From Polytrichum commune (Eukaryota > Streptophyta > Polytrichopsida > Polytrichales > Polytrichaceae): 64,000 bases of DNA. Numbering within the stretch: position 1 is the stretch's first letter; each line of letters begins with the position of its first letter. Positions 39,940-63,081 of this stretch are shown piece by piece. The notes under the pieces are model-generated. The model was given only the letters and a program-made list of their open reading frames with translations. It was not told the DNA's origin and searched no databases. Where the stretch lies: positions 2,542,501-2,606,500 of the forward strand of contig OX485805.1 of assembly GCA_950295325.1 (NCBI GenBank), given 5' to 3'. The translations under genes and the position numbers were made by a program.

Positions 39940-41492
39940 TACATAGAACCCCTACTCACCACCATCCTCAACATCCACCATCATATACTACCCCGAAGGA
40001 CATATCACATTCACTCGGCATGATGGTTCAATCCACAACCTACAACGTGCATTTGAAAACTAATAACTTGACATTGCTATCGCCCATGCCACCCTTCAAT
40101 TCACATGCTACAAAATTCCCCATCCTCAAAAACTTCCCATCTTTATTACCTTTGTCACACCCAATCCTCAGAGGCTGGGGCAAAACAACTTGTACACATG
40201 TACCTTGGAGGCATGGTTGTAGTCATCCAACATGGAACCAATGTATGGGTTGACTCGCCGTCCCCTCCTCGAACAACTAGTTACACACCCTGTCATGTTG
40301 CACCAACCCCTACCTCAACAATCTTTATATCAGTAAAAACACAACAAAACAATATATGCACTTGTTGCTCTCCTTGACTCCCATCCTTCCATTAGTTGCT
40401 ACACACTAATCCACAGAGGTTTTGAATATATAAAAAATCTACATGCATTTAAGTGTGGGAGCATTAATCCCCATATCTGTACACACATAAACACAATCAA
40501 TGGATCAAAGGCCATTGGGTAAGTATATCGTAATCGTGTGGGACAAACAAATAACCCCTTCATGCGTAGATGTATGAAATCTACTTTCAACATCTAAACT
40601 TGTTAGATAGTTTTGTGTTGTTTGGATGAAGTTCACATGCATTCATATCCTAGCTATATGTCATATATAAGCCAACACAATGACAATATCTAAGTCTACC
40701 ATCAAGTGATCACTTACATTAGAAGTCCATTTATTGCCCTTCTGATACCCAGGAGAGATATCCCAAACCCTTGGGATATTGGATCCTAATCTGCCCAGGC
40801 AACACTAAACACCCACCAACATTCATCCATAATTTTGTACTAAATTGTCTTGCATCCAAGTTATTTTCATTTATTTGTCATCCATCCCCTAGTCTTAATA
40901 ACAATTGTCCTAAAGTCCTACCAAACTTGTAGGATAGCCTTTTAGACCCTCCCATATACTTGAACACTATATTCGTTAAATTGAGACTTTCTCTAGTCTC
41001 AAATTAATATATGGATCAAACAACATTCCGTGTTCCGAAACTATATTGCGAACAATCTCAAATATATTATATGTTCTAATATCCCAAATCTATGGGGTGT
41101 GGACATAAGCACATATGGTAGAGCACTCAACACCAACTTCATCAACAAAAACACTTTGGGTAGAGCACTCCAAACTAGTTTCACCCAAAAAACATATAAA
41201 ATGATTTCTATTATTAGCATGGTCAATAAAATATAGACATTGCAACATACAAAGTACATGCAATAAATGCATTTTTCTTCAATGGAAAATTTAGTCCCAA
41301 ACTTAATAAAAAATGAACTTCACAACTGTATTGAAATATAGTAAATGGATATTCATCCAACCCCAAACAATATAGCATTCGCAAGTTCTACCCAAACTTT
41401 GCCCCAAGTTTGAGGAGCACACATATGAGTAATATATATTCGTCGAATTACATATTACACTATAATCATGCTAACACAATCCTACCAACTTC
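39940..41492. other. 3' flank of the DUF7869-type gene, no gene recognised
   Basis: No supported gene. The block 40970-41030 ('ctctagtctcaaattaatatatggat') is clearly related to 47980-48035, tying the right and left flanks of the unusual region together. Confidence 0.45.
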
Positions 41493-44400
41493 TCATTCAA
41501 CGTGGGTTGCTTCTTCTGCGATCCGAGCAAGGTTGTCTTTTGCAAAAGTTATGTACTTTTGAGGGATGGACACTGATCCACTATGATTTTTCCGTGGTTT
41601 CCATGCTATGAATATGGAATCTTTATCTACCCAAGATGGACCGTGCTCAGAATCCACCTTCCACCGAAAGTTAGGGTTTGTATCCCAACCTGTATAATGC
41701 CAAACAACATCTTCATTCCGTGTTGTCGGTCGGTAGTACTCTACTTGTATTTGTCGAAAATGAGGGCTGCAAGTTACAAAATTTGGTTTGGACAAAGCTC
41801 TTGCCACCCACACTGGCTTTGCATATGTCTCATCTCCAGGACGCAAAATGAGCATATAACCTTCATGACAATCCACTGCAATGCGGAAAGATGGTGGCGG
41901 ACGACTACTAGCAGGCCCCACGTAATGGTCGTCCACATCAAACTCCTCTCGAACCTCTCCATTTCCCAAAAGACTAGCCTCCGAAGCTTGTACATTGACA
42001 CGTGTTTGTGGCCAAAACCCATGCCTTAAAGTAAGGGGTGTATCTTGATGAAGGTTTGCCAAAGCGCCACGAACACGTGTCCAATATTGTATCCAACTTC
42101 CGTAACGAAGCCAACACGATCCACCAACATCCGCTACCCTCAAACTCTCCCAATATTGTATGAAGCCTGATATGCCTTTACAAATGTCCTCCAAATTCTT
42201 CATGGGTATTGGTTTGCAAGGCTTAGGCTCTCCGTCAGGCAACATCGTCCTTCCCTCCCCATCAACACGCCATACAAGGAGACCCTCCGGCGGACTCCAG
42301 TCTTGTGACGTGCACAACAACTTGTATTGCATGGCGGGGACACCATCGTCACGCACGTAGAACCGAAATTGTTGTGCCTTTGTATGTCCGATCAATCGGT
42401 GAGCTCCGCTTCGAATATACGGTTCTATAAATGCCTTGAAGTCTGGAACCTCCTCGATCATATGGGGGATGACGGGAATGTTCTCCAAATCCATGTACGA
42501 CTTCATCAACAATGGGATTGTCGGAAAATCCTCCTCGCGCAACTTCATGCTCCACTGCCCAAAAGATGCATCGATATCGTCGTGCGTGTGGCCTACCAAT
42601 AGAAAGGACACAAAAACCTCCTTGAAAATGCTTTTCGCAACCAACAACGACCAATATGCAAAAACATATCTACTTTTATTGTCCTTCGCACAATTGTCCA
42701 ATTGGACATGCAGAGTTGGGGGCAAATTCTTGGCAATCACATCTTCACTTGGTGGCTCCGGCAAGGAGTGCACGCATACATCTCTTCCATCCAAGACCGC
42801 TTCATATAGAGGTGTTGATCCCGAGTTTTCAAATAACAATCTTGATGAATAGGACGGCGGTTTCTCCAAATCACGTAAAAGCTTTGCAAATGACCCTATC
42901 GTGTGGTTTAAATCCGCCGGATACAAATCAAGAGCATAATGAGCATACTTGACATCACCATGTCCATGTGCAATCATCCCTGTAAAGCCAACCCAATGGT
43001 TTAATATTCAACTATAACACCAAAAAATTCACATGGTGTACATCTATGGCCCCAAGTACAAACCTAAAGCACAAATTTGTGTTTAGGTAATGCAATGCAA
43101 TTGTTATCGAAATCACCTGTAACCGATACAGGAAGCTTAAAAAGGCCGTCCGTGGTTTTTATTCGATTTGCAAAACATGGTGAGGCTGTTTTGGCATGGT
43201 CCATTTTGTCATGGATGATTGTAAGGACCTCCAAAGGCCTAGAGATGGACAAAGCTCTATTTGTGTAGTAATCATTACGGTATGCCTCTTGCATGTTCAC
43301 ATGCTTGAAATAGTTCATTTGATGTGCGGCATAGGACTCTGTCCCCATCGTGTGTGCATCTCGAAGGCGTTTCAACTTCTCGCATTTGGAACAACGGGCA
43401 AATTTGTCGCCTCGTCTTTTTGTGATGTATTCGCTAAAGTGAGATTTTTTTATTGCACTCAGTTTCGACAACGAAATAGGGTCCAACCCAACCTTCTCGC
43501 CAACTGCGTTTACGTCCAACAATATGTCTTTCCATTTCGTGCTTGTAGGAAGAACCTTCTCCACAACCTTTTCACCGGTTGCGAGTGTGCGTGTTTTGTG
43601 CGGCATTGCATCGGCAAGGGGGACAATGATGGTTGCCAGAGTGGCGGTTGCTTGTCTCGTTGATTCCCTTGGTTTCTTTAAGCCCGTATTCCCATGGTGA
43701 CGGGACCGGCGGCCTTCCTTGGCATACGCGGCTTGTCTATAAAATTCCGCTTTCGACACACTGTGAATGATGTACCATGCGGTACAACACACGTCTATGC
43801 TCTCAAGGGTAATGACCTTGCGACCCGCTCCGTTCACATGTATCGCCCTATGGACATCAAGTTTTTTGGTGGATCTTAGACGGAAATCTGCAAGCCACAT
43901 TTCCTCGCGGATGGCCTTCAATTTATCCCTTGGGAACAATTGGCAACAACGATGTACACAACAATCCTTTGTGGCAACTTCTCTAATGGACTCCTCACAA
44001 AGCAACCTTTGATGTTTACACTCATTTGCAGACGGAGTAGGACGTGCCAATGTATCGTACTTCCGTAGGCCTTTGCGTGGCCGAATGTTTGCTTGGAGCT
44101 CTTCTTGGATTTGGATGTGTCGTCGCTCATGCTCATGCAAATTAACCCCATCAATTGTCACATTCCTCAACGGCCACCTTCGCAACGAGAACCTATGAGT
44201 TGGATTCACTTCGGAATGTACGAGTGATTCCAATATAACAACTCCAACGTCCTCGGTGCCAAGGGGGTTTTCATCAATGCAATCTTGTGGATGTGTGTTA
44301 CAACAAATACCCTCCGCCACAGCAACTCCACTATCATTAACAAGTACTACATCCAAATTCACCCATAAAGCTCGTGAAAGCCCAGCACATTCCACAGTGG

Positions 44401-44560
44401 GGCAAGAAGGGGCAGATGGCGAAGGACTCCCCAAGTCACCTTCATCTGCATTGTCATCAAAACTATCCTCCCCAACAATGTCTAGCTCATCCCCAGACGT
44501 AGATTGGGTGTTGCCCATGTCGTCAGAGAAGGAATCCCCTCTTCCACCAACTCCCTCCAT
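41493..44560 (-). CDS. DUF7869-type transposase-like protein
   Basis: Two exons, 44560-43117 and 42979-41493, join in phase through a short GT-AG intron and give 976 aa. The start is the first ATG after a likely 3' splice site (tgtgtag) at about 44567, so a 5'-UTR intron is probable. The N-terminal ~100 residues are acidic and low-complexity. A zinc-knuckle-like CSKCEKL lies before IHDKMDHAKT (Asp at ~451 and 454). Exon 2 carries LHVQLDN (Asp ~576) and LLVGHTHDDID (~610-618). From memory, this spacing of DGMD, LDN and VGHTHxDID matches the DUF7869 family, which looks RNase-H/DDE-like and is often multicopy. A transposase origin is inference. The palindrome array starts about 180 bp upstream of the ATG. 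The reading frame is intact. Confidence 0.7.
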
Positions 44561-44736
44561 TGCGCCTACACACATGGAAAAAATGTAAGGGTCCAAAAGA
44601 ATCAAATATCGGAAAATGCAAGACACCATGATCAATGGGGACACCGAGGATGAAGACATTTCCAACACAACTACAATGTGAACTCCCAACACTGTGTGCA
44701 AGTCCAAAACAAGTTCCAGAAATTATTTTGGTGCGG

Positions 44737-45727
44737 GTTTGGGTCGACCGGCCCAAACCTCATAAGGGTCGGACTGAACCCCTAACACACTGGGGTAGGG
44801 GTTTGGGTCGACCGACCCAAACCTCACAAGGGTGCATCCACCCACACCAGGTAGGGGTTTGGGTCGGTCGACCCAAACCTGATAAGGGTCAGGAAAAAAC
44901 CCTAACACACTGGGGTAGGGGTTTGGGTCGATCGACCCAAACCTCACAAGGGTGCATCCACCCACACCAGGTAGGGGTTTGGGTCGGTCGACCCAAACCT
45001 GACAAGGGTCAGAAAAAAAAATCCTAACACACTGGGGTAGGGGTTTGGGTCGACCGACCCAAACCTCACAAGGGTACATCCACCCACACCAGGTAGGGGT
45101 TTGGGTCGGTCGACCCAAACTTGATAAGGGTCAGGAAAAAACCCTAACACACTGGGGTAGGGGTTTGGGTCGACCGACCCAAACCTCACAAGGGTGCATC
45201 CACCCACACCAGGTAGTGGTTTGGGTCGGTCGACCCAAACCTGACAAGGGTCAGAAAAAAACCCTAACACACTGGGGTAGGGGTTTGGGTCGACCGACCC
45301 AAACCTCACAAGGGTACATCCACCCACACCAGGTAGGGGTTTGGGTCAGTCGACCCAAACTTGATAAGGGTCAGGAAAAAACCCTAACACACTGGGGTAG
45401 GGGTTTGGGTCGACCGACCCAAACCTCACAAGGGTGCATCCACCCACACCAGGTAGTGGTTTGGGTCGGTCGACCCAAACCTGACAAGGGTTTGAAAGAA
45501 ACCCTAACACACTGGGGTAGGGGTTTGGGTCGACCGACCCAAACCTCACAAGGGTACATCCACCCACACCACGTAGGGGTTTGGGTCGGTCGATCCAAAC
45601 GTGATAAGGGTCAGGAAAAAACCCTAACACACTGGGGTTGGGGTTTGGGTCGACCGACCCAACCTGTTAAGGGTCAGACATAAACCCTAACACACTAGTG
45701 GACAGGTTTGGGTCGGTCGACCCAAAC
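44737..45727. repeat. 120-bp tandem array with 17 palindromes
   Basis: About eight units of roughly 120 bp. Each unit holds 'cctaacacactggggtag', a palindrome, 'ctcacaagggtgcatccaccc', a second palindrome and 'aagggtcaggaaaaaa'. The palindrome has arm GTTTGGGTCG, a two-base centre (AC, AT or GT) and the reverse complement of the arm. I count 17 palindromes, the first at 44737-44758 and the last at 45706-45727; most have perfect arms. Because 120 is a multiple of three, long frames run through both strands; these are artefacts. Confidence 0.95.
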
Positions 45728-46629
45728 CTCATAGGGTCAGACTCAAAACCCGCCAACACTAGTGTAAAGGTGAAGGTTCGCCCAAGTACACCACAAAATC
45801 CGGCGTATAATGCGGCGGATATTGCGTGGTGTGTTGAATTTGAGCTCATTGCAAAGTTCACGGTGGGCTTGCATGGTGTGGATAGGTGCTCATGAACTTG
45901 CATGCTATGGATAAGTGCTCATGAACGGCAGCATGCACGAACCTTGAAGTACAGCTCCTACTAAGAGTTCTCTCTACGAATTCGACAGCGGGAGAAGAGA
46001 AAAAAAGGACCGACTTTTGGGGGGTGCGCCCCTTTATACTATCCACCTCCGCTTCCCAGACTTAGTCATTGGATGCCTTCCCCGCCTTCTTCTCTTGCAG
46101 AGGTTATTTCAAACCTCCTGACAGAATTCCCTGTTTTCTGTTTATAGTAGAAAAATGCGCATCTATCAATGCCCCTCTGATACCCCAGCCGTCATATGAC
46201 TTAGTCTATGTTATTTAATCTATTTGTTTTGTTTTGTGTGGATATGACATACGCCATTGGGAGGAAGGGTGGCGGCCACATTAATTTTTTCAAGTATCAT
46301 CAAGGTATATTTCAACCAATATGTAGACCCAAACACAACTCCATTCAATGCTTTCAAGTGTAAACCTATTTAGATGGGGTTTGGGCCATTTGGAGGCTGC
46401 AATTATGAGAGAGTTTCCAAGGCTTGAGGCCATTGTCATGATGAATAGAATTATTTATTTGTCCCCCCTAAACCCTAAACCCTAGAACCTTGCTCTATTA
46501 TCTCGCATGCAAGAGTGGCAATGATGAACGTATGTGGACGTTGTTAAGGGGATACTAACTACCAATGTCCCTTTCTAGTTCAATCTTTTAATGTTACTTG
46601 AATCCATCCTCAAGTTCATTTCAAGTTTA
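45728..46629. other. Intergenic upstream region
   Basis: No coding gene seen. A telomere-like 'cccctaaaccctaaaccctag' is present at about 46466-46486. Confidence 0.4.
46033..46038 (-). promoter_or_regulatory. Possible TATA box of the DUF7869-type gene
   Basis: TATAAA on the minus strand in a GC-mixed context ('tataaaggggcgcacc'), about 1.5 kb upstream of the ATG. If used, the palindrome array would lie in a 5'-UTR intron ending at the acceptor near 44567. Tentative. Confidence 0.25.
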
Positions 46630-47465
46630 CTAATGTGTGAGAGCAAAACATCCAAGATTGGACCCTAAACCCTTATAACATCCACAACATGAAATACGCA
46701 TTGACTAAATACAAAACCAATTAGGATATCATGTTTAAACGTCCCATATAACATATTAACATGATCAAGATTGTATTTACTATGACCTTCCGATTAGACT
46801 CTTCTTCATATTATGCAAACAATATCTGTTATATCTTCCTCCATTATCTAATACACGTGGAGAGAACAATGAATAACAACATGATGTTGTGCTTCTCCGA
46901 TTTACTTTTACATGACATTCCATATATTAAATACATCATGAACGATGGTTTATTAGCGACTAATATGTGATTCCCTAAAGTGAGTGAAACATCCAAAGTT
47001 GGACCCCTAGCCCCTATTAACATCCACAATATTTCATGTTATGTGAATAAACACACGACCAATCAATATATCGCGTTTAAACGTCTCGAATAACAAATTA
47101 ACATAATCAACATCGTCTTCACTATAACCTTCCTATAAGACTCTTCTCACGAGTAAGACAATGTTATACATTGACATTGGATAGATTAATATGTTATAAC
47201 CCTATCTCCTAAACCCTAAACCCTAAACCCTAAACCCTAAACACCAAATGTAGTTGTGGTTCACTGATGCCCCCATATACAAACAACATCTATTTTATCT
47301 TGCGCCATCATCTAATATACATGGAAGGAACAGGGAATAACAACATGATTGCTTGAATGGCTTCATTTGATGTTGTGCTTATCCCATTTACTCTTATATC
47401 ACAATCTATATATTAAATAAATCATGAACCATGATTTATTGGCGACTATGTGATTCGTGAAAGTC
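46630..47465 (+). repeat. Degenerate tandem duplication, about 330-450 bp
   Basis: The block around 'gacccctaaccccyataacatcc', 'gtttaaacgtc' and 'accttccnatnagactcttct' at 46660-46805 recurs at 47000-47155. The block around 'ttatctaatacacgtggagagaaca' and 'atattaaatacatcatgaacgatg' at 46811-46975 recurs at 47270-47460. A telomeric repeat tract sits in the second copy. Confidence 0.65.
47212..47244 (+). repeat. Interstitial telomere-type repeats
   Basis: About four to five tandem CCCTAAA units, the plant telomere heptamer. Another short tract lies at 58651-58678. Confidence 0.9.
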
Positions 47466-49440
47466 ACGATCTAAGGGATGTACTTAAAACTTGAGCATGT
47501 TCGCATTTTCAAATAAGGATCGTGCATTTCAAAACCCTTGCAAAATGCAGTTGGGGAAGGTATTCATTTATTAGGCTCCATACTCAATTATTCTAAATTG
47601 TTCCACATGTTGGGGGGTGTGGGTAATTTTTTTTTTTCATTCAATATCGTGTGAATTGTTGGCATCATTGGTAAGGACTAAATGTGAATGGTTACATTGT
47701 TAAATATAACGCAATTATATGGTTTAAATTTTCCAACATGCTCAAACAAAAGAGAAACCAATGCCTTCAATGATTTTGGAAAATTTAGGGTATGGTGTCA
47801 TGTAAGTAGGGGATAAGTATTAGTTTAGCATAAAGTTTTGTTGTAAGAATGCGCTGGCTATATAAATGGTTAGTTTTGTAGAATAACACATTTTATGTAG
47901 CACCTTAGGGTACTCCATAGTTTTTTTGAAAAAACTAATAAGGGTTTAGAGCAGGGTCCAAAAGAACCTAAACCCTAAAATTCGCTAATTTGAGATTTTC
48001 TCTTCTCTCAAATTAATATATGGACCACAACAACATAGTGTAATGTTTAGGTCGTCCTACCTAAACCATCTTCATATGAGATCTTAATTGCGTTCTTGAT
48101 ATGAACACCCGCTTCAAAGTATTTGCATCTTACAACATTCTCCAATGTACGTGCGATTTTATCCATGTTCTTATATTTGTAACTTTCTCAAAATGCCGAA
48201 AAAATCCCAAATTAACGAATATACCGATTAAAACAAATGCAGCCTACAAAATTAGTGACTTAGCCTATAAAATTTTGAAAGTGTAGGACAAAGAGCCTAT
48301 GGACAATTTAAAAACATAGGATATCAACCTATGTGATAAAAACAATTAGGAAATTTTGCCTAAATTTTTTTTAAAAGAAAGGATTTTAGCCATTCATCCT
48401 TCTTCAAATTGGGAAATTAGTTGGCCTAAGTACATATCTTTAGGCTATATCTTGCAGGAAGAGTAGAGGTTGAATGAGAACATGGTGAGAACTTTCACCC
48501 TTAAACTCATTTGAATTTTAGCAACCTTTCATAACTTATAATCAACTCTTTAAAAAAGACTTGGTTAATCCTTGGCCTTCAAACGTGGTGAAAGGCTTAG
48601 CCAGGTTCAATTCCTGCCAAGGATCCCACTTAGTACTCAAATTTTGATTTTAAAACCTACAACATTAAAAGATATGAAGGATTTTAACCTACTAAAAATT
48701 AGTTTTGAGGCAATTGGCGAGGAACTTACAAACTCAAAAGGTTTTCAACTTACAAAAAGTTGATATTGTAGAATGCAACCTATGCTATGAGGCAAATAGC
48801 CTATGTACTCTTAAAGAGGTAGGCCCGCTAAGGGTTTAGAGTCAAGCGTTATGATTTAGGTTTTAGGGTTCCCTGTAACCCTGTTTCCGTGGGTGCCCTA
48901 ATCCTGTGGGCACCCTATTCATGCGGTTGGGGGCCAATGCCCGAGGTAAACAAAACCCCAACCGTCGCATTTCTCATTTCTTTCTTTCTCTCTCTTTCTT
49001 TCTCTCTCTCTTTCTTTCTCTCTCTCTCTCCGCGCCTCGCTTGGAAGCGCCGCCTCTCCTGAAGTGCCGCTTTCGCAAAGCGCCGCGGCGAATCAGGCTT
49101 GGTGTAGGTTAACCCTTCATTCTCCCGCGTTCATTGCTTTCTTCTGCATCTTCTTTTCCCTCCTTTCTTTTGCTCTTCAATAGAATAGCCCTTGTGCAAG
49201 CTTAGAAGTTAGGAAGAGTTTTGAAAGAAACAGAAACATACGGAGGAAGGTTTTAGAGCGTGAGAGTGAAGGAAGTTAGCAAAAGAGTGTTGAAGAGTAT
49301 TGGAAAGTGCTGAAGGAAGTTAGTAGAACATTGTGTAGTAGATAAAGCTTCGGTTTGGGAGGTCCAGGTGTTTGTACTGGAAGTTTTAGGAGTGCTTGTG
49401 AAATTCAAGAGTTCTTTAAGAGTATCAAGAGTTGTTTGAG
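47466..49440. other. 5' region upstream of the ParB-like gene
   Basis: AT-rich up to about 48840, then GC-rich with a CT microsatellite at 48978-49030, consistent with promoter and 5' UTR. A box-B-like CCAGGTTCAATTCCTGCC at about 48600-48617 looks tRNA- or SINE-derived, but no complete tRNA folds there. Confidence 0.35.
48044..48235 (+). repeat. Left member of a flanking direct repeat
   Basis: Begins with a variant palindrome (GTTTAGGTCG, centre, CTACCTAAAC) and continues through 'aacacccgcttcaaagtatttgc', 'atcttacaacattctccaatgt' and 'ctcaaaatgcc'. The same order recurs at 57548-57731 in the same orientation, roughly three quarters identical by eye. The pair brackets the ParB-like/HAD gene. 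Confidence 0.75.
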
Positions 49441-49700
49441 AGTTTTCGAAGTCGTTTGAGAGATTCAGTAGTTTTGTGAGGGATTCAGGAGTGGGTTTAG
49501 ACATTTCGAAGTCTTTTGAGAGGTTTAGTAGTTGTGTGTGAGATTCAGGAGTTGGTTTGGACATTTCGAAGGCTTTTGAGAGGTTTAGTAGTTGTGTGTG
49601 AGATTCAGGAGTTGGTTTAGACATTTCGAAGTCTTTTGAGAGATTCAGTAGTTCTGTGTGAGATTCAGGAGTTGGTTGAGAGATCCAAGAGCTATTTGAG
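49441..49700 (+). repeat. 60-bp tandem repeat in the probable 5' UTR
   Basis: Four to five units with period 60 containing 'gagattcaggagttggttt', 'gacatttcgaag' and 'cttttgagaggtttagtagtt'. The repeat makes an artefactual repetitive frame on the minus strand. It lies just upstream of a candidate 5' splice site at 49819. Confidence 0.75.
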
Positions 49701-49936
49701 AGAGTTGATACTTGTTTGAAAGTTTCTCATTGAACTTTCTCACAGTTTGTTTGATATTGAGAATTATTGGAAGAACAACCTGCTCTACTCCAAATTGTCT
49801 GCACAACATCTTTGAAAGGTATTGTGTTTTATTTTAACCAATATGTGTTTGTATATTCACGGTTTTGTAGCATACACAATGCATAAGCATTGTATATGCT
49901 AGATGCCAAGTTTTAAAAATACATTAAAATAATATT

Positions 49937-50327
49937 GTTTGGGGAGACGACCCAAACACAGCCCCTTGTTTGGGTCGCTCGACCCAAACACAAAACAAAG
50001 CATCATGTTTGGGCCGAACGACCAAAATATAACACAAAGCATCATGTTTGGGTCGAACGACCCAAACTAAGTCTTCTAATTATAAACTCATAAAGAAATC
50101 CATGATTTTTGCATCAATATAAAATTCACATCAACCCAAAATAATAATCAAGGAATGTATCAAGGAAAAGTATCAAGGAATCCTGCATGTCACAAACAAT
50201 ATAAAATGCAAATCCACCCAATAATCACAACATTCTTATTATCATTACAAATGATGCTGAAATATATAAATACACAATCCACCTAAACCTATTCATGTCG
50301 TAGATGTTTGGGTCGAACGACCGGAAC
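49937..50327 (+). repeat. Five palindromes in the proposed 5'-UTR intron
   Basis: Palindrome copies at 49937-49957 (imperfect), 49968-49989 (centre CT), 50007-50028 (imperfect), 50046-50067 (centre AA) and 50306-50327 (imperfect right arm). They fall inside a likely intron from donor 49819 (gaaag|gtattg) to acceptor 50353 (cttacag) directly before the ATG at 50354. Confidence 0.75.
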
Positions 50328-50353
50328 TAACTTTGCGCATTATTTTCTTACAG

Positions 50354-53300
50354 ATGGCTCCAAAGAAAAGACCCGGCGAAAGGTGGTTCATGCCTGCGCC
50401 GGACATGTTGTGGCAGGAGCACGAAACCCCGCAGGATGGCTCCTATTCCCCTAAGGACGGGCTTGTCCTCGCTTGGTCTATTCAAGTAGTCAAAGCCTCA
50501 ACATACAAAATGATTTTTGTTGTCAAGGTGGGAACCGTGGAGAAACACACCTGGGCGACTCTTACGGGATGGGAGGTCGCATCGGTACAGTCTCTTGGAG
50601 ACTATACTGACGTCATCCTCGAGAACTCGGCTGTGCAGAACGCGCATATGTTCATGCACCAGTTCTCCGAGCCTTTCGACGCACTCTATGCAAGAGAGTC
50701 CTGTGTCGAACCGGAAGTTATCAAGCCGGAGACAATATTTATCGATGGGAGTACATCGAATACCAAGGTCTCAAGCCGGTTCACAAAACTAAAACATGCA
50801 ATAACCGTGCTGAACAGGGGCCTGCAAAGCAAAACCAAATCACAGCAACCTGTGAGGCGGAAAGCTCCCACAGAGGAAGGAGCAGGGTCGTCAAGACCTC
50901 AATCGGTGAGGATGCCGCTACCAGTACCGGCTGACTCGCGTAGGACCACTCCCTCCCAAACACCTACGAATAGTGAGACCCCTACACCTTCTGGGAGCCG
51001 TCAAACAACTCCATCCAAGAGGGGGAGAGAGTCATCTGTGATGACTGACGAGCCAGTCTCACCGGAGTTGCGCATGCCGAAGCCCGGCGAAGAGGTGGAT
51101 GTAGGGGAGCTGCAGAAAATCGTGAACAATTTCACGACGAAATGCTCCCACTGTTTTTTTATGGGCAGGGATTTCAAGTTCGACGTGAACATCAGCCAGT
51201 GCCATCTAGCGCCACCGGAGAAGTGTGTCCGGGCAAAGGAGGACGCCTACGTTGACTGGATAATTGCGCAGATCGTTTGCGAGCAGTTTAAAGACGACAT
51301 GCAAACGATTGTAGTGATGCCACAGGGTCTCAAGAAAATGCCTACACCTGAAATGTGGCCAACAATTCAGAAGGGCGATTTTTGGCTGATAGACGGCCAA
51401 CACAACGTGGAGGCATCCAAGAAAATCCAACTCATGAATGAGTGGGACGATCCCAACAATCAGAAGGAAAAGCTGAAGGTTTGGAAGGCACTGGTGGTGT
51501 GGTCTGACGACGAGACCAAACTCAGCGACATCTCCCGGTACTTCAATATGGGAAACAAGAAGAGGGCCTACCAAGCTTCCTGGATAAGGAATATCATGGC
51601 CTCGCAGGAGGTGTGGGAGTTCTATGGTAGGCCTCCCAAGGAGAGGGAGAATGCGAAGGACAAGAATCCCAAGTGGGAGGTGAGTATTGTTTGGGTCGAC
51701 CGACCCAAACTCCTGGTGCAGTCTTGTGTTTTTTTTAGTTTGGGTCGATCGACCCAAACAACTGTTGCAGTCTTGTGTTTTTTTAGTTTGGGTCGATCGA
51801 CCCAAACAACTGTTGCAGTCTTGTGTTTTTTTTCCAGTTTGGGTCGACCGACCCAAACTCTTGTTGTAGATGTTGGTCATGATATGGTTTGGAAATCACA
51901 TGTACTTAACTAACACGCATTCAAATGTTCTGTGTTGTTCACGTGTAGGATTTCAAATACCAAATGATCAACAAATTCTCCTCCATTGATAATTCGAGCC
52001 ACAAGCAGAAGAAATACATCGACCTGAAGGGGGAGATTTACTTGATTACAACATCGGACTCAGTTTGGAGGAAGTGGAAAACCGTGTTTGAAAAGCACGA
52101 GACGGGGGATTTGATCGACCCTGACACTGACGCTTTCTTCAGCCTGGCCTCGCGCTTCAAGCAGATGAAACCTCTCGTGAGAGAGTTCTTTAGAACTCTT
52201 CAAGGGCTGTCAGAGACGGAGGTGGAAAAGGCGGCATCGCACATCCTGCACGTGGCACCCACGGCCAAGAGGTGCTGGATGCACCCGAAGATTGTCTTCG
52301 TAAAGCCCAAATCCTTCGTTCCTTCATGCTACACCATGAAGGAATGGACGGAGAACATGAAAAAGAAGACGACTATCGTGCAGGAGCTGCATAAATTGGT
52401 GCCAGAGAGGAATATTGTCGTGGACGGCGAGGTTCATGGGACTAACTGGAGAGCATTCAAAGATGAATATAAGTTCACCAGTGCCTCCATGGCGGCTCTA
52501 ATAAGGGAAGCGGGGGACGACTTCTTGCGGGCCAAGATGGTGAAGGGTGGGAAGAACCGGGTGCTTCCGGATCACACAGCGCGTGCGTTCTCGAACTTCA
52601 TCAAGGAGAAGAAGATTGTCTAGTTTGAAGGGGACGCTTATTTCAACCTTGTCACCTTCGAGCCTTTGAAAATTCAGGGCTGGCCAGGTCAAGACGCCAG
52701 AATGGCGATAAGGACGAAAGCAAGGGACCGCTTTCCTTTTGGGATGATTGATTTTAGAAATATTCCTGGAAGCTCATTTGAGGGCACGATGAGCACCCTC
52801 TTCTATGACCCCTTCTTAACTAAGTTCGTCGATTATGCAAGCCCTAAGTTCAGGGAGGTAGATATCTGGCTTTGGATAGTCGAGGATAGAAGGGCGGAGC
52901 AGGTGTACGAGCTTGTCCGGAAACTGCAACCGGAGTATGCAGTGTCCAAGTCTCACTACATCGCCGCACCGGCGGAGGGGGCTTACACGACGTTGAAGGA
53001 CAAGAAGACCAAGTTCGTCAACGTCTTGTGTTTGTACTTCGTGTACAAAGCAGAGTTGCTGAAGGTGCCAAACCACCCTATATTCCGGATGGACAAACTC
53101 TTCCAAGTTCCAGAAGGGTTGGGTGCGAACAAGTGCCTCTACGACGAGGCTAAATACGCGAACTATCCTGCAGACGAGCTGCGGATGGAATTTTACATGA
53201 GAATGATGAGGACGCTGACGAGGAGAGGGGACTGCATCTTCAACGTCTTCGGAGGCTCAAAACCTGTCTATGCTGCTATGGTAAGTGACTTTCTATAGCT

Positions 53301-56266
53301 CGTAAGCAGTTTGGGTCGATCGACCCAAACTAGGCTCTTTGCAGGTTTAGGTCGACCGACCCAAACTAGGCTCTTTGCAGGTTTGGGTCGACCGGCCCAA
53401 ACTACACATTTCACTTAGTCTTGTTTATGTGACTGCCTCGACAAATTCTAATTTCCCTATAACTTGGATTGTGTAGATGTTGGGGCTGAATATATACTCC
53501 TACATAGAGGATGGCGATCTGCCATTTTATAGGGTACAGAAATCGCTGGCGAAGAAGATGGACATCCTCGATTGGATCCCGGGTAGCTACGTCGACGAGG
53601 TTGTTCAGGGTGGCGAAAACCCTCTTGATAGGGTGAGGCGCATCAACCCGGAGGAAATGGCCATGAGGGCCACGACCCAAGTTCCCGAACCTCTGGTCGG
53701 GTTGCATCCGGGCAATCCGTCCCGCACAGAAGGTGGCGAGGTTGAGGAGGAGGAGGAGGAAGAAGAGGAACACGAGGAGGCGGAGAAGGAAGGCGACGTC
53801 GAGGAAGGGGCAACGGGCTTCACGCAACAATCCAAAGCCCCTCAACGGAAGAAGGCGATGCGGGCGGTAACCCCGCAGAGTAAGCTCGTGCCCGTCCTGA
53901 CTGTGGACGATGCACGGGACATGTACTCCAGGGACGCCACCGCGACGTTCAGGGAGAGGAGGAAGTTAAAGGGGAAGAAGCTGTATGGCGACTACTCCGT
54001 GGAGGAGACCATTGCCATAAGTAGCGAGGACGACGATGACATTGAGCTCGCCAAACGGCTAAGATCAGATCCCCCGTCCCCGACAGTGTTCGCTGGCATG
54101 GTTAGGGTGAAGCCCGAGGTCCTGACTGTGGAGGAGGTGAACGAGAAGATGAGGAGGGACGAGGAGCAGCGAGTCCGCCTGCAGAAGGCTGCCGCGGAAG
54201 AACCCTCAATGCGGAACGAGGTCGCAGAGCTGAGGGCTCTCCTGTTGGACCAGGAGCGTCAAAGGGCGATGGCCCAACCTCCGTCCCACGCCGACTTGAT
54301 ATCACAAGTGATACAAGGAATGTGGGCGCAAGGTTTGGTGGTGGCTCCCTCCAGCTCCTTCCCGCACTTGCCCCCCGGCTTCCTTCCGCAGAGCATCCCT
54401 CAGCAGCCTGTGCCGCAATCGTCTTTCAGCTTCCAACACTTGATGCGGCCCCACCAAGTTCCGTACGCGCCGGTCCAGCAAGTGGATGACCCCAACATCT
54501 GGCGCGTCTCTGGAGCCTCCTCCCCTTTGGGCCCTCCACCACTTCGGCCCCCCATAGTCATGGCGCCACCCCACCAATCGGACGACCCCAGGATGTTTGG
54601 GTCGACCGACCCAAACCCACCATCCACTGTAGTGTCCGAAGGGCCCTCTCCAGATGCAGGACAGTTTGGGTCGGGCGACCCAAACCCCGTTGCAACGCAG
54701 TCCTCCCTTGACCAACATGGGTGTCAACTAGACACGGCCATGCTAGATGTTGAAGGCCTGCAAGGGCCTGGTGATACCTCTACTCCTAACCAAATCGATG
54801 AACCCATGCATGATGCACATGCGGAGATTGGTTTAGGACAAGGGCCTGATGCCGATCGTTTGCAGGAGAAGGTTCCTGACGTCGTCGGAGAAGGCGGTGG
54901 CGAGAGAGGCGGGGCAGCGGGGACGGTGGAGGCTTCCACATCGTCGAGACATGACCAGGGCGAGGTAATACACTGAGCCCTCCCAGTTTGGGTCGACCGA
55001 CCCAAACTTCCTAGGTCACTGTCTTGTTGGCGTGGTCGTGTCCCCCTTGCTAGGAGGAAATGCACACCCCCTGCCCCCCCTGGTCTACACTTGCTCCCCC
55101 TCCCCCCAACGTGCCCCCCCGCGATCCCCTTCGTCTCCCCTGCATTCGACTACGCTCGACCTTGGCGGCGCGCAACCAATTTTGTAGATGTAGAATTAGG
55201 ATAGTGTGAATGCCCTCGTTCACCGCGTCCCCCCCCCCCCAAATCAAATTGTACATAGAGATTTGTAAAAATAAAATTATTATTTTTGGCGCCCATATGT
55301 TTGCATCCGTGTCCCAATGTATGTTGTTCCCTTGTATGTTTTTGTTGCCACCAATGGTCCAATTCTTCTTGTGTTTGCACAAAATTTCCGTTCTGCTTGA
55401 GATGGACATAGCATAACATAGTCCTCGCCGCCTTCTCTCGCTCGTCGCCGCAGGGTTCGGAGCATAGCGTCGCAGCTCCCCACCGATCCTCTCCGAGGAG
55501 TGTGGAGGACAGCGCGGTGGTCCCCCCGATTTTGCCCTCGCCACCTTCGCCTCCCAAGACCCGGTTTCTGGTGCTAGACCTCAACGGGGTCCTTGTCCAG
55601 TGCGTGCATTGTCCGAGGGTCCCCACGGTGCCTTTCTGCAAGCCCGAGGACGCCAACTACGATGGACACCCCGCGTACATCAAAAGCAAGCTAGTGTACC
55701 TCCGCCCGTCCCTTCGGCGCTTCCTACAGGTCACCCTATCCAAATGGTGGGTGATCATTTGGAGCTCCATGAAGTCCGAGAATACCCAGGCCGTCGTGGA
55801 GTTCATCTTCAAGGGACTCCAACCCCCGTGCTTGGTCCTAGGACAGGATTCTTGTAAAACATTGTACACCCCCAAGGGCAGGGTTGTGAAGAAGCCCAAC
55901 AACCCCGCCGTAAACCAATTTCTTAAGGTCTTGAAGCCAGTCGTATGGGACCAGCGTCCGACCATGGTCGGCTGTCCCTACGACGTTCGCCCCACCCGTG
56001 ACAACACGTTGATGGTGGACGACAGCGCTTCCAAAAACATTTTGAACCCGACCTCGAACTTCATAGTTTGCCCGACGTGGACGGTCGAGAAGGTCCGAGA
56101 CCGCTTTTTGTTAGACCTACTTAAGTACATTCAAACGCTCGTGGGGAGCGGACTACCCGTGCCCCGGTTCCTTAGTTGTAATCCGATAGGCGAAAGATAC
56201 ATGGATCCGAAGGACTATATGTACAGAGAGTTGTACGCTCACGCGAAATATAATAAACTCATTTGA
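50354..56266 (+). CDS. Multidomain ParB/DGQH-like, methyltransferase-like and HAD phosphatase-like fusion, with in-frame TAG
   Basis: Four exons join through in-phase (phase 0) GT-AG introns: 50354-51679, 51949-53280, 53477-54964, 55454-56266; about 1,652 codons. N-terminal ~130 residues are unrecognised, then a Pro/Ser/Thr linker. WLIDGQHNVEASK (DGQH at 347-350) after IVVMPQ resembles the ParB/DGQHR nuclease fold. Exon 2 holds LFYDPF (Asp ~729). NVFGGSKPVYAAM (FGGSK at 876-880) continues across the intron into LGLNIYSYIED. That order, catalytic-like motif then SAM-loop-like motif, matches beta-class N4/N6 DNA methyltransferases, but key glycines and the DPPY motif are degraded. Exon 3 is acidic, charged and Pro-rich. 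Exon 4, lacking its own ATG, encodes an FCP1/NLI-type HAD domain with DLNGV (Asp ~1424) and MVDDS. A TAG at 52621-52623 (codon 667) breaks exon 2. A GT...AG pair at 52540/52677 could remove it in phase. No function is claimed. Confidence 0.65.
51689..51858 (+). repeat. Four palindromes in intron 1 of the ParB-like gene
   Basis: Perfect palindromes at 51689-51710, 51738-51759, 51786-51807 and 51837-51858 with centres AC or AT, in about 48-bp tandem units that share 'aactgttgcagtcttgtgttttt'. All lie between donor 51680 and acceptor 51948. Confidence 0.95.
53309..53402 (+). repeat. Three palindromes in intron 2 of the ParB-like gene
   Basis: Copies at 53309-53330, 53344-53365 and 53381-53402, spaced about 36 bp and separated by 'taggctctttgcag'. 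They occupy about half of the 196-bp intron. Confidence 0.95.
54595..54685 (+). repeat. Two palindromes inside coding exon 3
   Basis: Palindromes at 54595-54616 (centre AC) and 54664-54685 (centre GG) are read in the same frame as FGSTDPNP and FGSGDPNP. Both keep full arms. Confidence 0.95.
54986..55007 (+). repeat. Palindrome in intron 3 of the ParB-like gene
   Basis: A perfect copy with centre AC, 22 bp after the 5' splice site at 54965. Confidence 0.95.
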
Positions 56267-56385
56267 GATACTACATGGTGTGCCATTGTGTGTGATATAT
56301 TATGCCTCAAATGTATATCGATTTTCACATGCTCCCCCCTCCCCCCTTCCCCTTGGGTTTTGTTTTGTTTCCTTTTTTGCGCCAG

Positions 56386-57192
56386 CGTTTGGAGCCCTCG
56401 ATTGAGATCGTCAGCGAATCAAACTTGGGGAGCTTCTTCTACGAGACCGTCTACGATGCCGCGTCCACCATCGACTACTCCAAGGAGCCTCTTGACGCCG
56501 GCGTCGTCGATAGCCCCCCACCCAAGCAAATCTTCCGGCGATCTCCGTCCCCGTCGCCGCTCAAGGGCATAAATCGCAAATGCGTCCGGACGTCCCCCTC
56601 TCGGCCCGGCGGCAGTAGTACACCTCAACGGCGGCTGCGGATGGACGCTCGGCCTACGAAGAGTGGCACCCTTCCTATTCCTTTGCGGGACGCATTGCCC
56701 CTCCTCGCCGACTCCGACGGGAACGCCCCCGGTGACAAGGTGAACCCCCCCCCCCCCCCAAAAACATGGTTAACCGCGCATTACAATCATCCGGCACTTA
56801 AAAAATGAACGTGTGACACGTTTGGGTCTTCCTCCCTAAACTAACACGTGTGTTCTTGCATTCACGCGTTGCAGGTTGCTCCCACCCGTAGACCTATGCG
56901 GGCTAGTGCGTCCGTCGAGTTGGAGCATTTCTACTCCATGACCAGAAATGCAAGACAGTCCACTTCATCGTATTCGAATTCTTCGTCGTATAATTCGGGC
57001 GGCCGACGGAATCCAAAATGTGTTATTGATGGCGGTCACCCCAAGAATGGCTATAGTCGCGGGGCGGAGATTTTCAGGAATGTTGAAGCAATGCGAGCAA
57101 AAGAAGCCGCAGCAAAAGAAAAAGAGGCAAAAGAAAAAAAAGCAAAAGAAAATGAAGCAAAAGAAAAAGAGGTAGTCTCCGAGGCTAGATAG
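56386..57192 (+). CDS. Additional 3' coding exons of the ParB-like/HAD locus
   Basis: Two exons (56386-56739 and 56875-57192) join in phase 0 by a GT-AG intron and encode about 224 residues. There is an acidic start with SFFYETVYDAA, an SP-rich basic middle, a Ser/Tyr/Gly-rich part and a Lys/Glu/Ala-rich coiled-coil-like tail built on KEKEAKE repeats, ending in a stop at 57190. A pyrimidine-rich tract and cag precede 56386, so this looks like an internal exon. The HAD exon stops 120 bp earlier, so a junction to it is not obvious. The exon 3 donor at 54964 is also phase 0 and could skip the HAD exon. A separate start at ATG 56302 is possible. The intron between these exons holds a degenerate palindrome ('gtttgggtcttcctccctaaac'). 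Confidence 0.45.
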
Positions 57193-57358
57193 GCCATAGT
57201 AGGCGTAGGGTTTTGGGCCATAGGCAAGAACATTTTGGGTCGCACTATCCAATGGATGTGTTGTGTTAGCATGCTATGCATTTTACATGCCACACTTTGT
57301 ATGTTTTTTTTTTGCAATAATATAAGTGTCACATGATTTCCCCTTCCATATGGTCTAA

Positions 57359-57731
57359 GGTTTGGATTGCCCTACCTAAACCATCACAAATATGAGTTTG
57401 GAATATTTTGTATGTTATTTTATATTGGTTCACATATTTCCCCTTCAATATGATCTATGGTTTGGATTGCCCTACCTAAACCATATTCATACAAGTTTTT
57501 GTGCGATAATATGAATGTTTTAAGATTTCCCCTTCAACTTGGCCTAAGGTTTGGATTGCCCACCCTAAACAATCCCAAATATTGAGTTATTAACGGGGTT
57601 CTTGTTCTAAACACCCGCTTCAAAGTGTTTGCATCTTACAACTTTCTCCAATATGTGTTCCATTTATCCTTGTTCTTATTTCTGTGAATGTCTCAAAATG
57701 CCCAAAAAGTCTCAATTTAACGAATATAGTG
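57359..57731 (+). repeat. Variant palindromes and right member of the flanking direct repeat
   Basis: Three variant palindromes of the form 'ggtttggattgccctacctaaacc' lie at about 57359, 57460 and 57546. From 57548 the sequence parallels 48044-48235 ('aacacccgcttcaaagtgtttgc', 'atcttacaactttctccaat', 'ctcaaaatgcccaaaaag'). Same orientation, about 9.5 kb apart. Confidence 0.75.
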
Positions 57732-57903
57732 TTCTTGCATCTTTTCCTTTTACAATGTACCTAGGCTAAGTATATTTTGTAAATCATTATCCCAATAAAA
57801 CCTCCTCTTGTGCACTCATGTATGTTCTCATAGGCCTAGACAAGTGCAACCCCCAAGGACCAATATATCATGTCCGTGCTCCACATTGACGTTCTTGTCT
57901 CTA

Positions 57904-60900
57904 TTAGTTTTTGTGTATTTTTAAGATAGATAGGGAGTCTGCGTCCGCGATCAAATTGACTTGAGCAAAACCTCCCGCAAGAGCTAATTGCTGCATCTCA
58001 CGTTCAGTACGCTCTCGAGCCCCATCTCTAAGGCCGATCATCATTGAGAGATCAAGACGGAAAGCCAATTTGTCATGAAGATTGTCCGGGTTGGTGATCT
58101 TAGGCAAGAGGCATTCCACTACAATCACCTTTCCTTTGGCGGGAAGAGAATTGTAGCAGTTTCTCAATAACTTGATGTTGTGGTTGTCATCCCAGTTGTG
58201 CAATATAAACTGCCAAATTTGCAATACATCATGCCCACGTGCCAACCCTGATTACAATCATTTTCTTGGAACATTTTTCAATTTGTTCAGAGACGAAGTG
58301 ATGAGCGCTATATATTACAACGTTAGAAAACTAGTGGTAAATTCGACAAGTGTTCTAAGTGGTGGGCTGAATAAGCAGTTGACTCTAGAAATGAGGATGT
58401 CATGATATACAAATGGCTTTCCTGTACATACAAACTAACCTAATGTATCTTGACTTATGACTCTTGAATAATTACCTTCAGGGGCCATTCACGATCAGGG
58501 TACTACTTTCGGGACACATGACTTAAGGACTTTGTCGCATTGATCTTGGTTTTTATCATGATTTACTATTATTTGATCAATAAATTTTACATAAACAAGT
58601 AGATAGTTCATAAGCTTTATCAAGAAAGATTTTTATTATTATTTAATAATCACCCTAAACCCTAAACCCTAAACCCTAGGCCACATCAGTGGCATTTTTT
58701 TGCTATTTAGGTGTGCATTGGTGGTCAATTATTTCTTGTTATGTATCTTGGTACCTTGGTAAAAGTGTCATGTGTCCATTCATATAAATTTTTTTGTCCA
58801 ATTCTAATACTAGACGTTCCTTTTACGTGTGGCCGTGAGTATATGTATATTTGGACATGTTTGGTGCCACATGTAAAGTTGGGCAATTGCTATTCAATAC
58901 ATATTTGGTTCTATTGGTACACACTTGAACGATGATTGTGAGGAAACAATTTGGGATCGTTTCGATTGATTCTTGTTGTCCTTTTCATTCCTTGATCCTA
59001 AGGTGAACAATGAAGACAGCGGTCCTGAATGTCCTTTAAGGAATCAAAAGGATATCTTAGATGACCCTATTCCTTCTAAATTAACTTTGTCAATGTACTT
59101 GATATGGAGTATGAAATGCAGGTATGATCCAAAATATGCTTCACAATACAAATGTAAGCATACCAAGCATGTGAAGTTATCCAAAAAAGTCCGTTTTCCG
59201 TTAGACGGCCAAAAGTAGTACCCTGATTGTGAATGGCCCCTTCATGAAGATGGTGTCACCGGAAGGAACACTTGTGAACATGTCTCCACCTAAGAACTCC
59301 ACTTCTGCCAACATTCAAGTCCTTAAATTTGAGCAATTTTATACAATGACAACCCTTGAATGACCATGAAAACTACTTTCAACCATTTTTCCACTTTGAA
59401 ACTCCACATATATAGATACACTAATATTCTTGAAGAACCTGATCTAAGGTGATAGATTATGAGTTATTAGGGGTTTCACCCAATGAATGAATTCGAACAA
59501 CTCTTGGTTGCAAGCTTGGTAATGTGGAACAAAAAAGTGCTCCGGTACACTAAAACCATAATGTTTTTAGTCAAAGGCCTAAAAATAAATGCTTTGTTAT
59601 TATTTAAATTGGATTTTGTTGTTATTATTATTATTATTATTATTATTTTCTATGATGACCTCTATTGTTGTGTTAAACACTCAAATGTAGAATATCACGT
59701 TGACATCTTCAATACATAGCATCAAAAGTGATGCTCAAAAGCAAATGGTTGAGTTTGGTTTTAGATGTAGATATCATGGCCTTAGCTATTTTGTATTCCT
59801 TGAATTCATTATCTACTTGAGGGCATCATCACAAAACTTTGTAGAAAACCAACAATTTAATGTAATATTATCATATTTTAAACAAATTCTAGACAATCAC
59901 TTATTTAATATCACCTACTTGCACACCACTTGCACCGTCTTTTGAAAAATGTAGACTTCTCTTGGATTCTTTTTTGTCATTACAAATTGCTTGGCTTTGT
60001 AAATCAGTTTGTTTTTAAAATGTCGATGATGTTTTTCTTCACAAGATTCAAAGTCAATACATAAAATTGAATCACTTTCACTTAACACTAGGCATGGATC
60101 AAGAGTTGTCCACTTTCCAGGGCTTGCACCCTCTTCACAACATTACATGAAAAGCTTCATGTGAGCCTACCCAAGCTAGTACTGACAATAATTTGCACAA
60201 AATAGGTGCACTTTGATAAGGCATTCTACAGGTGATGCAGACGCCCCGTGAGTCAAGTATTGAATCTAAAAGAAAACGACCTGGCTGTGTGACATTTGAA
60301 TAATTTAAAGGTATGTCAATAAGTTTAAGATATGTAGGCCTTATTGGGAAGAAATCTTCAATAAGATGCATACCGAATTCAAATAATGGTGCGTCGGACA
60401 ACCTTCCAAAATCTAAGCTAGAAACATTCAAAACTGTATGATTCTAGTAAAAGTAACTATTCTCAGCCCTTAGTACACAGATTTAATGCTGGACTTGAAT
60501 TAATAGATTCACACCTTGACGCGGCACACACGACGCAATCACATGAGGCAGGTCGAAATTGATGCCGTGGATGTGAGGATACCGCTCCGTGATGGCGCCC
60601 AGAGTGGATCCCAAGCCGCCTCCCACGTCCACCAACACTCTCACATCCTTGAACCCCTCGTATTTCTCCAAAATCGTATTCATACTCAACCTCGACTGGT
60701 TGAGCATCGCCTGGTTGAACAGCTCAGCTGCTTGCGCGTTCTCTTGCTTGGCTTGGTATTCCCACAAGTGCATGCCATGCGCCATCTTGAAAGGCTCATG
60801 GTCGGGCTTATTTTCAAGCACAGCCTCATGAATGTGATGATAAGTCATCCTCACAAATGGGGCATCTCGGAACACAACAATCTGCGCAAGCGATCCGGCC

Positions 60901-61298
60901 GTGTCGTTCTTCACAAAGCATTTGGAAATGGGAGTTAACCCGAACCTCCTAATCGGTTCCAGTTTATCAGTGCCATCCAAGCAAGGTGTGACCGTCTCAC
61001 TAAACACCTTGTGGCTCGCGAGGATCCGCAGCAACCTCTCCAAGTAGGCCACCTTCATGGACTTGCCTGGCATGGCAAGGTTTGCTATTTCCTGTGCGGT
61101 CATTGATAACTGTGCGCCATTGTTATTGGTTCCGGCCCTCGCGAACGCCTCGAAGACGTCCAACTTCACAAGAGCCGTGACTGCCGCAGGGATGGTGCCT
61201 CCCATGATGAGGGCCATGGCTGCTATTCTACCTTGCTCATCGTCAGAGGTAATTGAAGCTGCTATTGGACTTGACGTATGATTATTACACCCTGTCAT
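57904..61298 (-). CDS. COMT-type plant O-methyltransferase, exon 2 interrupted by a transposon
   Basis: SAM-dependent methyltransferase of the caffeic acid/flavonoid OMT family; the substrate cannot be told. Three exons: 61298-60515 (ATG at 61298), 59304-59241 plus one displaced base, and 58209-57904. Without the insertion they join in phase to 384 aa. An N-terminal dimerisation region is followed by the SAM loop LVDVGGGLGST (~222-232), the FDLPHVI block, GGDMF (~266-270), and FILHNWDD with the catalytic-type His at ~287. The protein ends with the usual GGF...ADADSLSILKI tail. A 760-bp element (58481-59240) sits in the last codon of exon 2. It moves the real 5' splice site (AAG|gtaatt, now at 58476/58475) 760 bp away, so normal mRNA is unlikely in this allele unless the element is spliced around. 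The family call is firm; functionality is doubtful. Confidence 0.85.
58481..59240. mobile_element. 760-bp TIR element inserted in the O-methyltransferase exon
   Basis: Termini GGGGCCATTCACGATCAGGG and its near-perfect inverse run about 30 bp inward (through 'tactactttcgg'). It is flanked by the direct duplication TTCA (58477-58480 and 59241-59244). A second copy in inverse orientation starts at 63687. No transposase visible, so it is non-autonomous. It also contains a telomere-like (CCCTAAA) tract at 58651-58678. Confidence 0.85.
58651..58678 (+). repeat. Interstitial telomere-type repeats
   Basis: About three to four CCCTAAA units inside the 760-bp element. Confidence 0.85.
59305..60514. 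other. Intron 1 of the O-methyltransferase gene
   Basis: About 1.2 kb. A (TTA)n microsatellite lies at 59619-59647. A 98-codon minus-strand frame at 60135-60431 has protein-like composition, but I do not recognise it and it has no splice support. Confidence 0.5.
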
Positions 61299-61574
61299 AG
61301 TGTTGTTGTGATATATACGAGGTCCCAAGTGCTATGATGTCCCAGATCTCCCAAAAATTTGCAACAATGAAGTGATGATCTTGTCTCTAGTTTATGGGCT
61401 GTTCATGCATGGTACTGTATCAAAGTTGTCGTGCTCGTTGCAAGAAAAGGGCCACATAACGAAGTGATCAATCCAGATTGTCTATACAGATGACGGAATA
61501 TCCACATACCCTATTTCAATCTGAGAGACAGCTATCTGCAAACAACTCGTTCTGTACTAGCAAATGCCGGATCG

Positions 61575-61612: not shown

Positions 61613-61951
61613 ATTCCTGCCCTCCGCTCTCCTCATATGTATGTAAAATATGGCGGAGGTTAGGTTCCTCCCACGAACTTTCCAGGGTAGGAATGTTCGG
61701 GCAGGGGCAGCCGCCCGTCAGATTTTTTGGACCCGACCGAAAACTGCTGCCCGCCCGCCCGACTTCGGAAAAAACTATTGTCCTTGCATTCTTGAAGGTC
61801 ACTTATCCACAAATCCCATATTGAGTGTACTCCATTTTCAAGGTCCCAAATCCAATATATATGTTCACTTCCAATGAGTAAATAAACAATTGATTGGTTT
61901 TCATTTACAAAGTGAAACTGCCAATGTTAATTAACTTGGAAGTTTAAAATA

Positions 61952-63061: not shown

Positions 63062-63081
63062 TTAAAATATTACGAAATCCT

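Follow-up and report, generated by a model that had tools for sequence, protein, structure and literature searches.

A 22-bp palindrome is repeated in a 64,000-nucleotide stretch of the Polytrichum commune genome (contig C3:2542501-2606500 of the 407.8-Mb genome; here called the window and numbered from its first letter). The pattern searched, GTTTGGGTCG-NN-CGACCCAAAC, consists of two 10-bp arms and a two-base center. All 32 of its window matches with up to three mismatches, 23 of which are exact, lie within positions 44737 to 55007, inside a 16,771-bp DNA transposon, and the same word was also found in an unrelated, MULE-like transposon type. We tentatively favor the reading that the palindrome is a putative DNA recognition site of two-fold symmetry that transposons retain and amplify to their own advantage and that is read by an element-encoded dimer, most likely an accessory protein.

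Distribution and sequence of the palindrome

In 100 dinucleotide-preserving shuffles of the window, palindrome matches averaged 0.00, with a largest count of 0. The initial annotation had counted 32 copies between 44.7 and 55.0 kb, and the pattern search with up to three mismatches bore this out. Its statement that the other 50 kb contained none is correct at that threshold but not at four to five mismatches, where degenerate relatives appear within the transposon at 41154, 56820, 57233, 57360, 57460, and 57549 and, with four mismatches, outside it at 35954. Several of these relatives (41154, 56820, and the three at 57360 to 57570 near the right end, with four to five mismatches) are close to the transposon ends and are possibly ancestral subterminal repeats.

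Confinement to one region, as initially described, holds within the window but not for the genome, which contains 9,231 exact palindromes and 0 matches to a control pattern read backwards. Positions are known for 100 matches, listed in order along contig C1 up to position 2,159,887, and were taken as complete for that stretch. All 100 map to the spans of five mobile elements, with 36, 16, and 25 in three copies of the window-type transposon and 13 and 10 in two MULE-like copies; the even spread, or the single common satellite, that would have spoken against the initial annotation was thus not what was seen. The assignment is firm for 98 of the 100 listed matches, while the other 2 (C1 at 475.3 kb) are tied to the MULE-like element only through the repeat itself. 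The group of 13 sites lies in C1:433656-483275, where blastn blocks indicate a MULE-like element interrupted by long insertions. The exact palindrome had 0 matches in viral_contigs and 0 in genome_contigs.

The window transposon carries two genes, here called A (minus strand) and B (plus strand). According to gene models drawn by eye, 17 of the 32 sites form an array upstream of gene A (44737 to 45727). Gene B holds 14, of which 4 are in a probable 5' untranslated region (UTR) intron; its introns 1, 2, and 3 have 4, 3, and 1, respectively, and its exon 3 has 2. The remaining site is in a nested short element. The array upstream of gene A is built of a 120-bp double unit in which the centers mostly alternate between AC and GT.

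Site statistics were derived from 176 sites (up to three mismatches) in six regions, four of them limited to element intervals, which form 34 flank clusters. Conservation is at least 97% at 17 of the 20 arm positions and lowest at 159/176, values that the mismatch limit favors. The centers were AC/GT (78), AT (22), AA/TT (38), AG/CT (28), GG (3), GC (3), and TC (4), that is, 103 purine-pyrimidine, 39 purine-purine, and 34 pyrimidine-pyrimidine steps. The center described in the initial annotation as free and varying does vary but is not free, since none of the 176 copies has CA, TG, TA, or CG. Pyrimidine-purine centers are likewise absent from all 34 flank clusters, which has a probability of ~6e-5 if the clusters are independent and composition-random. 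In the outer flanks, C is scarce at position -1 (4/176) and G at position +1 (1/176). The simplest reading of this pattern would be a dimer site with near-invariant half-sites and a center that is not contacted but is limited in shape.

The copy designated c616 is the most diverged one, its gene B product being 80% identical to that of the window over 1,355 residues. Its sites are placed as in the window, with equal numbers for the array upstream of gene A (17), intron 1 (4), intron 2 (3), exon 3 (2), and intron 3 (1), and with 13 sites upstream of gene B. For a spacer test, the palindromes were removed, and the alignment score of the window against c616 was compared with the mean of 10 shuffles each. 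The intron 1 spacers scored 0.725 versus 0.725 for the shuffles, yet all 4 of their palindromes are in place; the sites thus persist while the nearby intron 1 spacers are replaced. The intron 2 spacers scored 0.759 versus 0.739, with 3 of 3 palindromes in place, and those of the UTR region scored 0.80 versus 0.81. A blastn comparison joined the window and c616 across intron 2 but not across intron 1. The two exact palindromes within the coding sequence of gene B exon 3 (54595 to 54616 and 54664 to 54685, plus strand) show no change at any of the 20 arm bases in either copy, within a stretch that is 76% identical (355/467). The arrays themselves differ between the copies: upstream of gene A, both have 17 sites but with different periods, and upstream of gene B, there are 4 sites in the window versus 13 in c616. 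A variant near-palindrome, GTTTGGGGAGACGACCCAAAC, just inside the probable UTR intron of gene B (49937 to 49957) is also retained in c616.

The two carrier elements

Neither the transposon that carries the palindromes, with its inverted ends and 4-bp target duplications, nor the second, unrelated transposon type with the same word was part of the initial annotation. The limits of the window element (40963 to 57733) were set by comparison with three copies on contig C1, which also placed its 28-bp terminal inverted repeats (AACACTATATTCGTTAAATTGAGACTTT at 40963 to 40990 on the plus strand and its counterpart at 57706 to 57733 on the minus strand) and the flanking target-site duplications CTTG (40959 to 40962 and 57734 to 57737). 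All four examined copies (16,771, 18,084, 18,616, and 16,952 bp) start with AACACTATATTCGTTAAATTGAGACTTT and close with its inverse, with three mismatches at the right end of copy c1180, and all four have matching 4-bp duplications (CTTG, AAGT, CCTT, and TTAT). A 4-bp target-site duplication combined with inverted ends is a trait of Sola1 elements, and it was found in 4 of 4 copies. Self-comparison revealed a nested short element (approximately 47980 to 48223) that resembles both transposon ends (40971-41026 matches 47980-48036, and 48074-48223 matches 57579-57728) and that holds a degenerate palindrome with three mismatches at 48045 to 48066.

Gene A comprises exon 1 (43117 to 44560), an open frame with splice signals recognized by eye, and exon 2 (41493 to 42979), which encodes a DUF7869 domain (Pfam PF25273, E 2.4e-39) as the putative C-terminal half of a transposase. 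The spliced translation is 977 amino acids long without an internal stop. Motifs identified by eye (LHVQLDN and GHTHDDID) suggest a transposase of the DDE/D type. No paper found by our search of the open-license literature names DUF7869.

Gene B is preceded by the probable UTR intron (49819 to 50353; donor AAAG/GTATTG and acceptor TTACAG/ATGG by eye), which contains palindromes at 49968, 50007 (imperfect), 50046, and 50306 (imperfect). Exon 1 (50354 to 51679) includes GDFWLIDGQHNVEASKK, ParB-like by eye, and is followed by intron 1 (51680 to 51948; palindromes at 51689, 51738, 51786, and 51837). Exon 2 (51949 to 53280), whose C-terminal part may be methyltransferase-like as judged by eye only, and intron 2 (53281 to 53476; palindromes at 53309, 53345, and 53381) lead to exon 3 (53477 to 54964), in which the two palindromes are read in frame as FGSTDPN and FGSGDPN. 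Intron 3 (54965 to 55453) has a single palindrome at 54986 to 55007, and exon 4 (55454 to 56266) encodes a NIF (FCP1/SCP-like phosphatase) domain with the sequence FLVLDLNGVL (PF03031, E 2.3e-13 on the frame from 55502 to 56266).

NIF is the only gene B domain above its Pfam cut-off. For the ParB-like part, neither Pfam nor NCBIfam gave a ParB match, and the support comes from a weak match to phrog_1033, "ParB-like partition protein" (E 0.31), over the GDFWLIDGQHNVEASKK / DGQH motif; it is also the sole PHROG match of the homologous c616 segment. Profile searches of Pfam, NCBIfam, and PHROG detected no methyltransferase domain in gene B, and a PDB sequence search with its core found no match. 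A single-sequence AlphaFold model of exon 1 was discarded (mean pLDDT, 36). The usual first motif of NIF/FCP1-like phosphatases is DxDxT; that of gene B is DLNGV, so the enzyme may be altered or dead.

The second carrier is a MULE-like element at C1:2151944-2164288 with inverted ends GGAGGGAAGCTATCTTATGAGC.. / GGGGAGTGCTATCTTATGAGC.. and, in this one copy, a flanking 9-bp duplication, AGTTGGCAT, of the size (~9 bp) of Mutator-type target duplications. The profile search of its minus-strand gene returned no transposase domain match and a weak SWIM match below the cut-off (E 0.075). The coding blocks of this gene flank one palindrome array with a 32-bp period, read as an intron, and a second palindrome array precedes the plus-strand accessory gene. 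The accessory gene contains FFIWDGNHRFFAW, which is ParB-like by eye, with no ParB match in Pfam, and the C terminus of its protein matches the DNA methyltransferase phrog_67 (E 6.2e-7). In the other MULE-like copy, Pfam N6_N4_Mtase was matched with an E value of 3.6e-5, at 24.3 bits and thus below the cut-off of 26.7. A phage tblastn search with the accessory protein retrieved five records, all phage DNA methylases (E 0.08 to 0.2), and a PDB sequence search with its C-terminal part gave one irrelevant match (E 1.3). No homologues of genes A and B were found in the MULE-like element by tblastn at 1e-3. Between the two genes of the element lies a further array of another palindrome, CCCTGTGCGTTAACGCACAGGG, repeated every 64 bp (C1 about 2157722-2158867, and also about C1:461458-462024).

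The neighboring window genes encode a three-repeat C2H2 zinc finger (E 4.5e-25) and an O-methyltransferase (E 7.3e-25), and there is a WRC match below the cut-off (E 1e-4). The window also contains runs of CCCTAAA, and together these features indicate a plant, probably a land plant. Inverted arms of 314 bp, 96% identical and ~4.4 kb apart (58927 to 59240 and 63687 to 64000), surround a piece of the O-methyltransferase gene (60483 to 61328), perhaps as a transposon with a captured gene. Another inverted pair of 450 bp, also 96% identical (61951 to 62399 and 62613 to 63062), contains 34-bp tandem repeats and has a related copy ~1 kb from the transposon copy at C1:2.1 Mb.

Possible readers of the palindrome

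Since the elements multiply the palindrome, it probably helps them. We suggest that a dimeric protein encoded by the elements may bind both arms, the center being read only through DNA shape, and that the bound protein would mark or shield element chromatin. The element genes could thereby stay expressed despite host silencing, by analogy with the action of VANC on VANDAL elements. The most likely reader would be the accessory protein, for which profile searches indicate a probable methyltransferase domain in the MULE-like element and which has a weak ParB-like motif and a NIF phosphatase domain in the window element. Both carriers would fit a ParB-methyltransferase plan, the MULE-like element by its methyltransferase profile and gene B weakly, by the PHROG match.

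Several observations weigh against this reading. For gene B, the ParB assignment is weak and the methyltransferase assignment was made by eye, and a phage tblastn search with the gene B core found no match. None of the four copies examined has an intact gene B: exon 2 has an in-frame stop at 52621 in the window, exon 1 has stops in c1180 and c2115, and exon 3 has a frameshift in c616, where exons 1 and 2 are open. These copies may therefore rely on products supplied from other sources. The accessory proteins of the two elements have no detectable similarity by tblastn (1e-3), by hhalign (probability 0.1 on a scale of 0 to 100), or by Smith-Waterman alignment (235 and 147 of 500 shuffles were as good), which leaves the common site specificity unexplained unless it arose by convergence or a third protein is the reader. 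Some spacers are partly retained between the window and c616 (intron 3, 0.79 versus 0.70; array upstream of gene A, 0.83 versus 0.75), and the spacer measure is coarse, as even exons score just 0.78 to 0.80 versus 0.72 to 0.73. Finally, 14 of the 32 window sites lie in transcribed parts of the gene B model, which would allow an RNA role.

The initial annotation had envisaged a symmetric protein-binding or recombination site or a hairpin-forming unit rather than a simple satellite. A symmetric protein-binding site is the best fit to near-invariant arms within unrelated spacers, to positions kept in introns and a coding exon, and to the lack of pyrimidine-purine centers, whereas a recombination site was rejected because nothing observed supports such a role. 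Hairpins acting in the transcript, through splicing, export, or small RNAs, would agree with the 12 copies in modelled gene B introns (four of them in the probable UTR intron) and the 2 in a coding exon, with the position of several palindromes directly 3' of splice donors (51689, 53309, and 54986), and with the predicted fold of intron 1 (-99.2 kcal/mol; z, -7.3). However, strong folding follows from tandem palindromes by construction, and the 17-site upstream array may lie outside transcribed DNA. A four-base loop also gives no cause for avoiding pyrimidine-purine centers, and there is no clear excess of pair-keeping over pair-breaking substitutions (9 versus 6, too few events to discriminate), so that we consider an RNA element unlikely. 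Selfish expansion of a satellite by slippage at a hairpin-prone word, with no selected function, would account for the array periods and copy numbers that vary between copies. Yet the array units vary between copies and element types instead of being conserved as a whole, the arrays lie inside elements rather than independently of them, and the two element types have only the 22-bp word in common. As this word also survives in a coding exon and in intron 1 despite the loss of the spacers there, and its center is restricted, we regard such an origin as very improbable.

Two further candidates would retain the idea of a protein-binding site but assign it to another protein. If the palindromes were transposase sites, they could be an internal extension of subterminal repeats, as hinted at by the degenerate relatives close to the ends (184 to 373 bp away on the right and, for one of them, 191 bp away on the left) and by the nested short element with similar ends, which holds the palindrome at 48045. 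The 32 copies, however, are at least 2.7 kb from either transposon end, and the same site occurs in the MULE-like element, whose inverted ends differ and which lacks a gene A homologue, making the transposase an improbable reader. A host DNA-binding protein, drawn in by arrays that both transposon types would have evolved in order to be expressed, to open chromatin, or for targeting, is a weightier though still doubtful candidate. It would explain how two unrelated element types without a detectable common protein share a site and why the sites remain although gene B is broken in every copy examined. On the other hand, one would expect some sites of a host regulator to be at host genes, while all 100 listed matches are inside element spans, and a near-invariant 20-bp site is unusually long for such a regulator.

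Relation to known systems and significance

VANDAL elements have a Mutator-type transposase and lack inverted ends; the window element, with its 28-bp inverted ends, 4-bp duplications, and DUF7869, is therefore not classed among them. Its layout is nevertheless similar to that of the VANC targets of VANDAL in Arabidopsis, in which a multigene DNA transposon likewise has a short motif multiplied in tandem, both within introns and ahead of the transposase gene, VANC21 motifs being described in introns of VANB and VANC and upstream of VANA (PMC5735166). According to the same account, the VANC arrays are also alike in changing fast and in using a motif that is rare in other elements; the VANC21 motif differs in being the 9-base YAGTATTAY in one orientation, enriched in one family (PMC5735166). 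The site described here is a 22-bp palindrome with a variable two-base center that is common to two element types, and the two systems are likened by layout.

Bacterial ParB proteins bind palindromic, often clustered parS sites and then spread along the DNA. The palindrome differs from parS in sequence and length, the ParB domain call is weak here, and no partition function is implied. In Sola1-1_Ec32 of Ectocarpus, a ParB-methyltransferase gene is described on the strand opposite the transposase; its authors point to further cases in green and red algae and suggest that proteins of this kind bind the element that encodes them and modify it (PMC12477816). The window element is similarly a DNA transposon of large size in which a long accessory gene lies opposite the transposase strand and may have methyltransferase-like and, weakly, ParB-like features, but gene B has a NIF phosphatase domain at its end, and the ParB and methyltransferase assignments are weak. 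Palindromes are not mentioned in the main text of the Sola1-1_Ec32 report (PMC12477816). Arrays of self-recognition motifs and ParB-methyltransferase accessory genes are thus each already in print, whereas in the open-license literature searched we found neither this palindrome nor a target named for ParB-methyltransferase accessory proteins, and the matches listed for the arm word GTTTGGGTCG were unrelated by title.

A bolder and rather doubtful extension would be a eukaryotic parS-like self-recognition system. In such a system, ParB/methyltransferase-like transposon proteins would bind one 22-bp palindrome with a restricted central step, adopted within a single plant genome by two unrelated superfamilies. 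One of these would have the binder joined to a phosphatase domain of the FCP1 type, with RNA polymerase II as its possible target at the introns and promoters of the element itself.

ParB-methyltransferase accessory genes of giant transposons have been put forward as possible self-marking proteins, with no target named in the text consulted (PMC12477816). A 22-bp site that is nearly invariant, has 9,231 exact copies in the genome, and is concentrated in its carriers where sampled would give this idea a directly testable DNA target. If the reading is true, the sharing of one site by two unrelated transposon types would mean that transposons can hold self-recognition in common or hijack it from one another.

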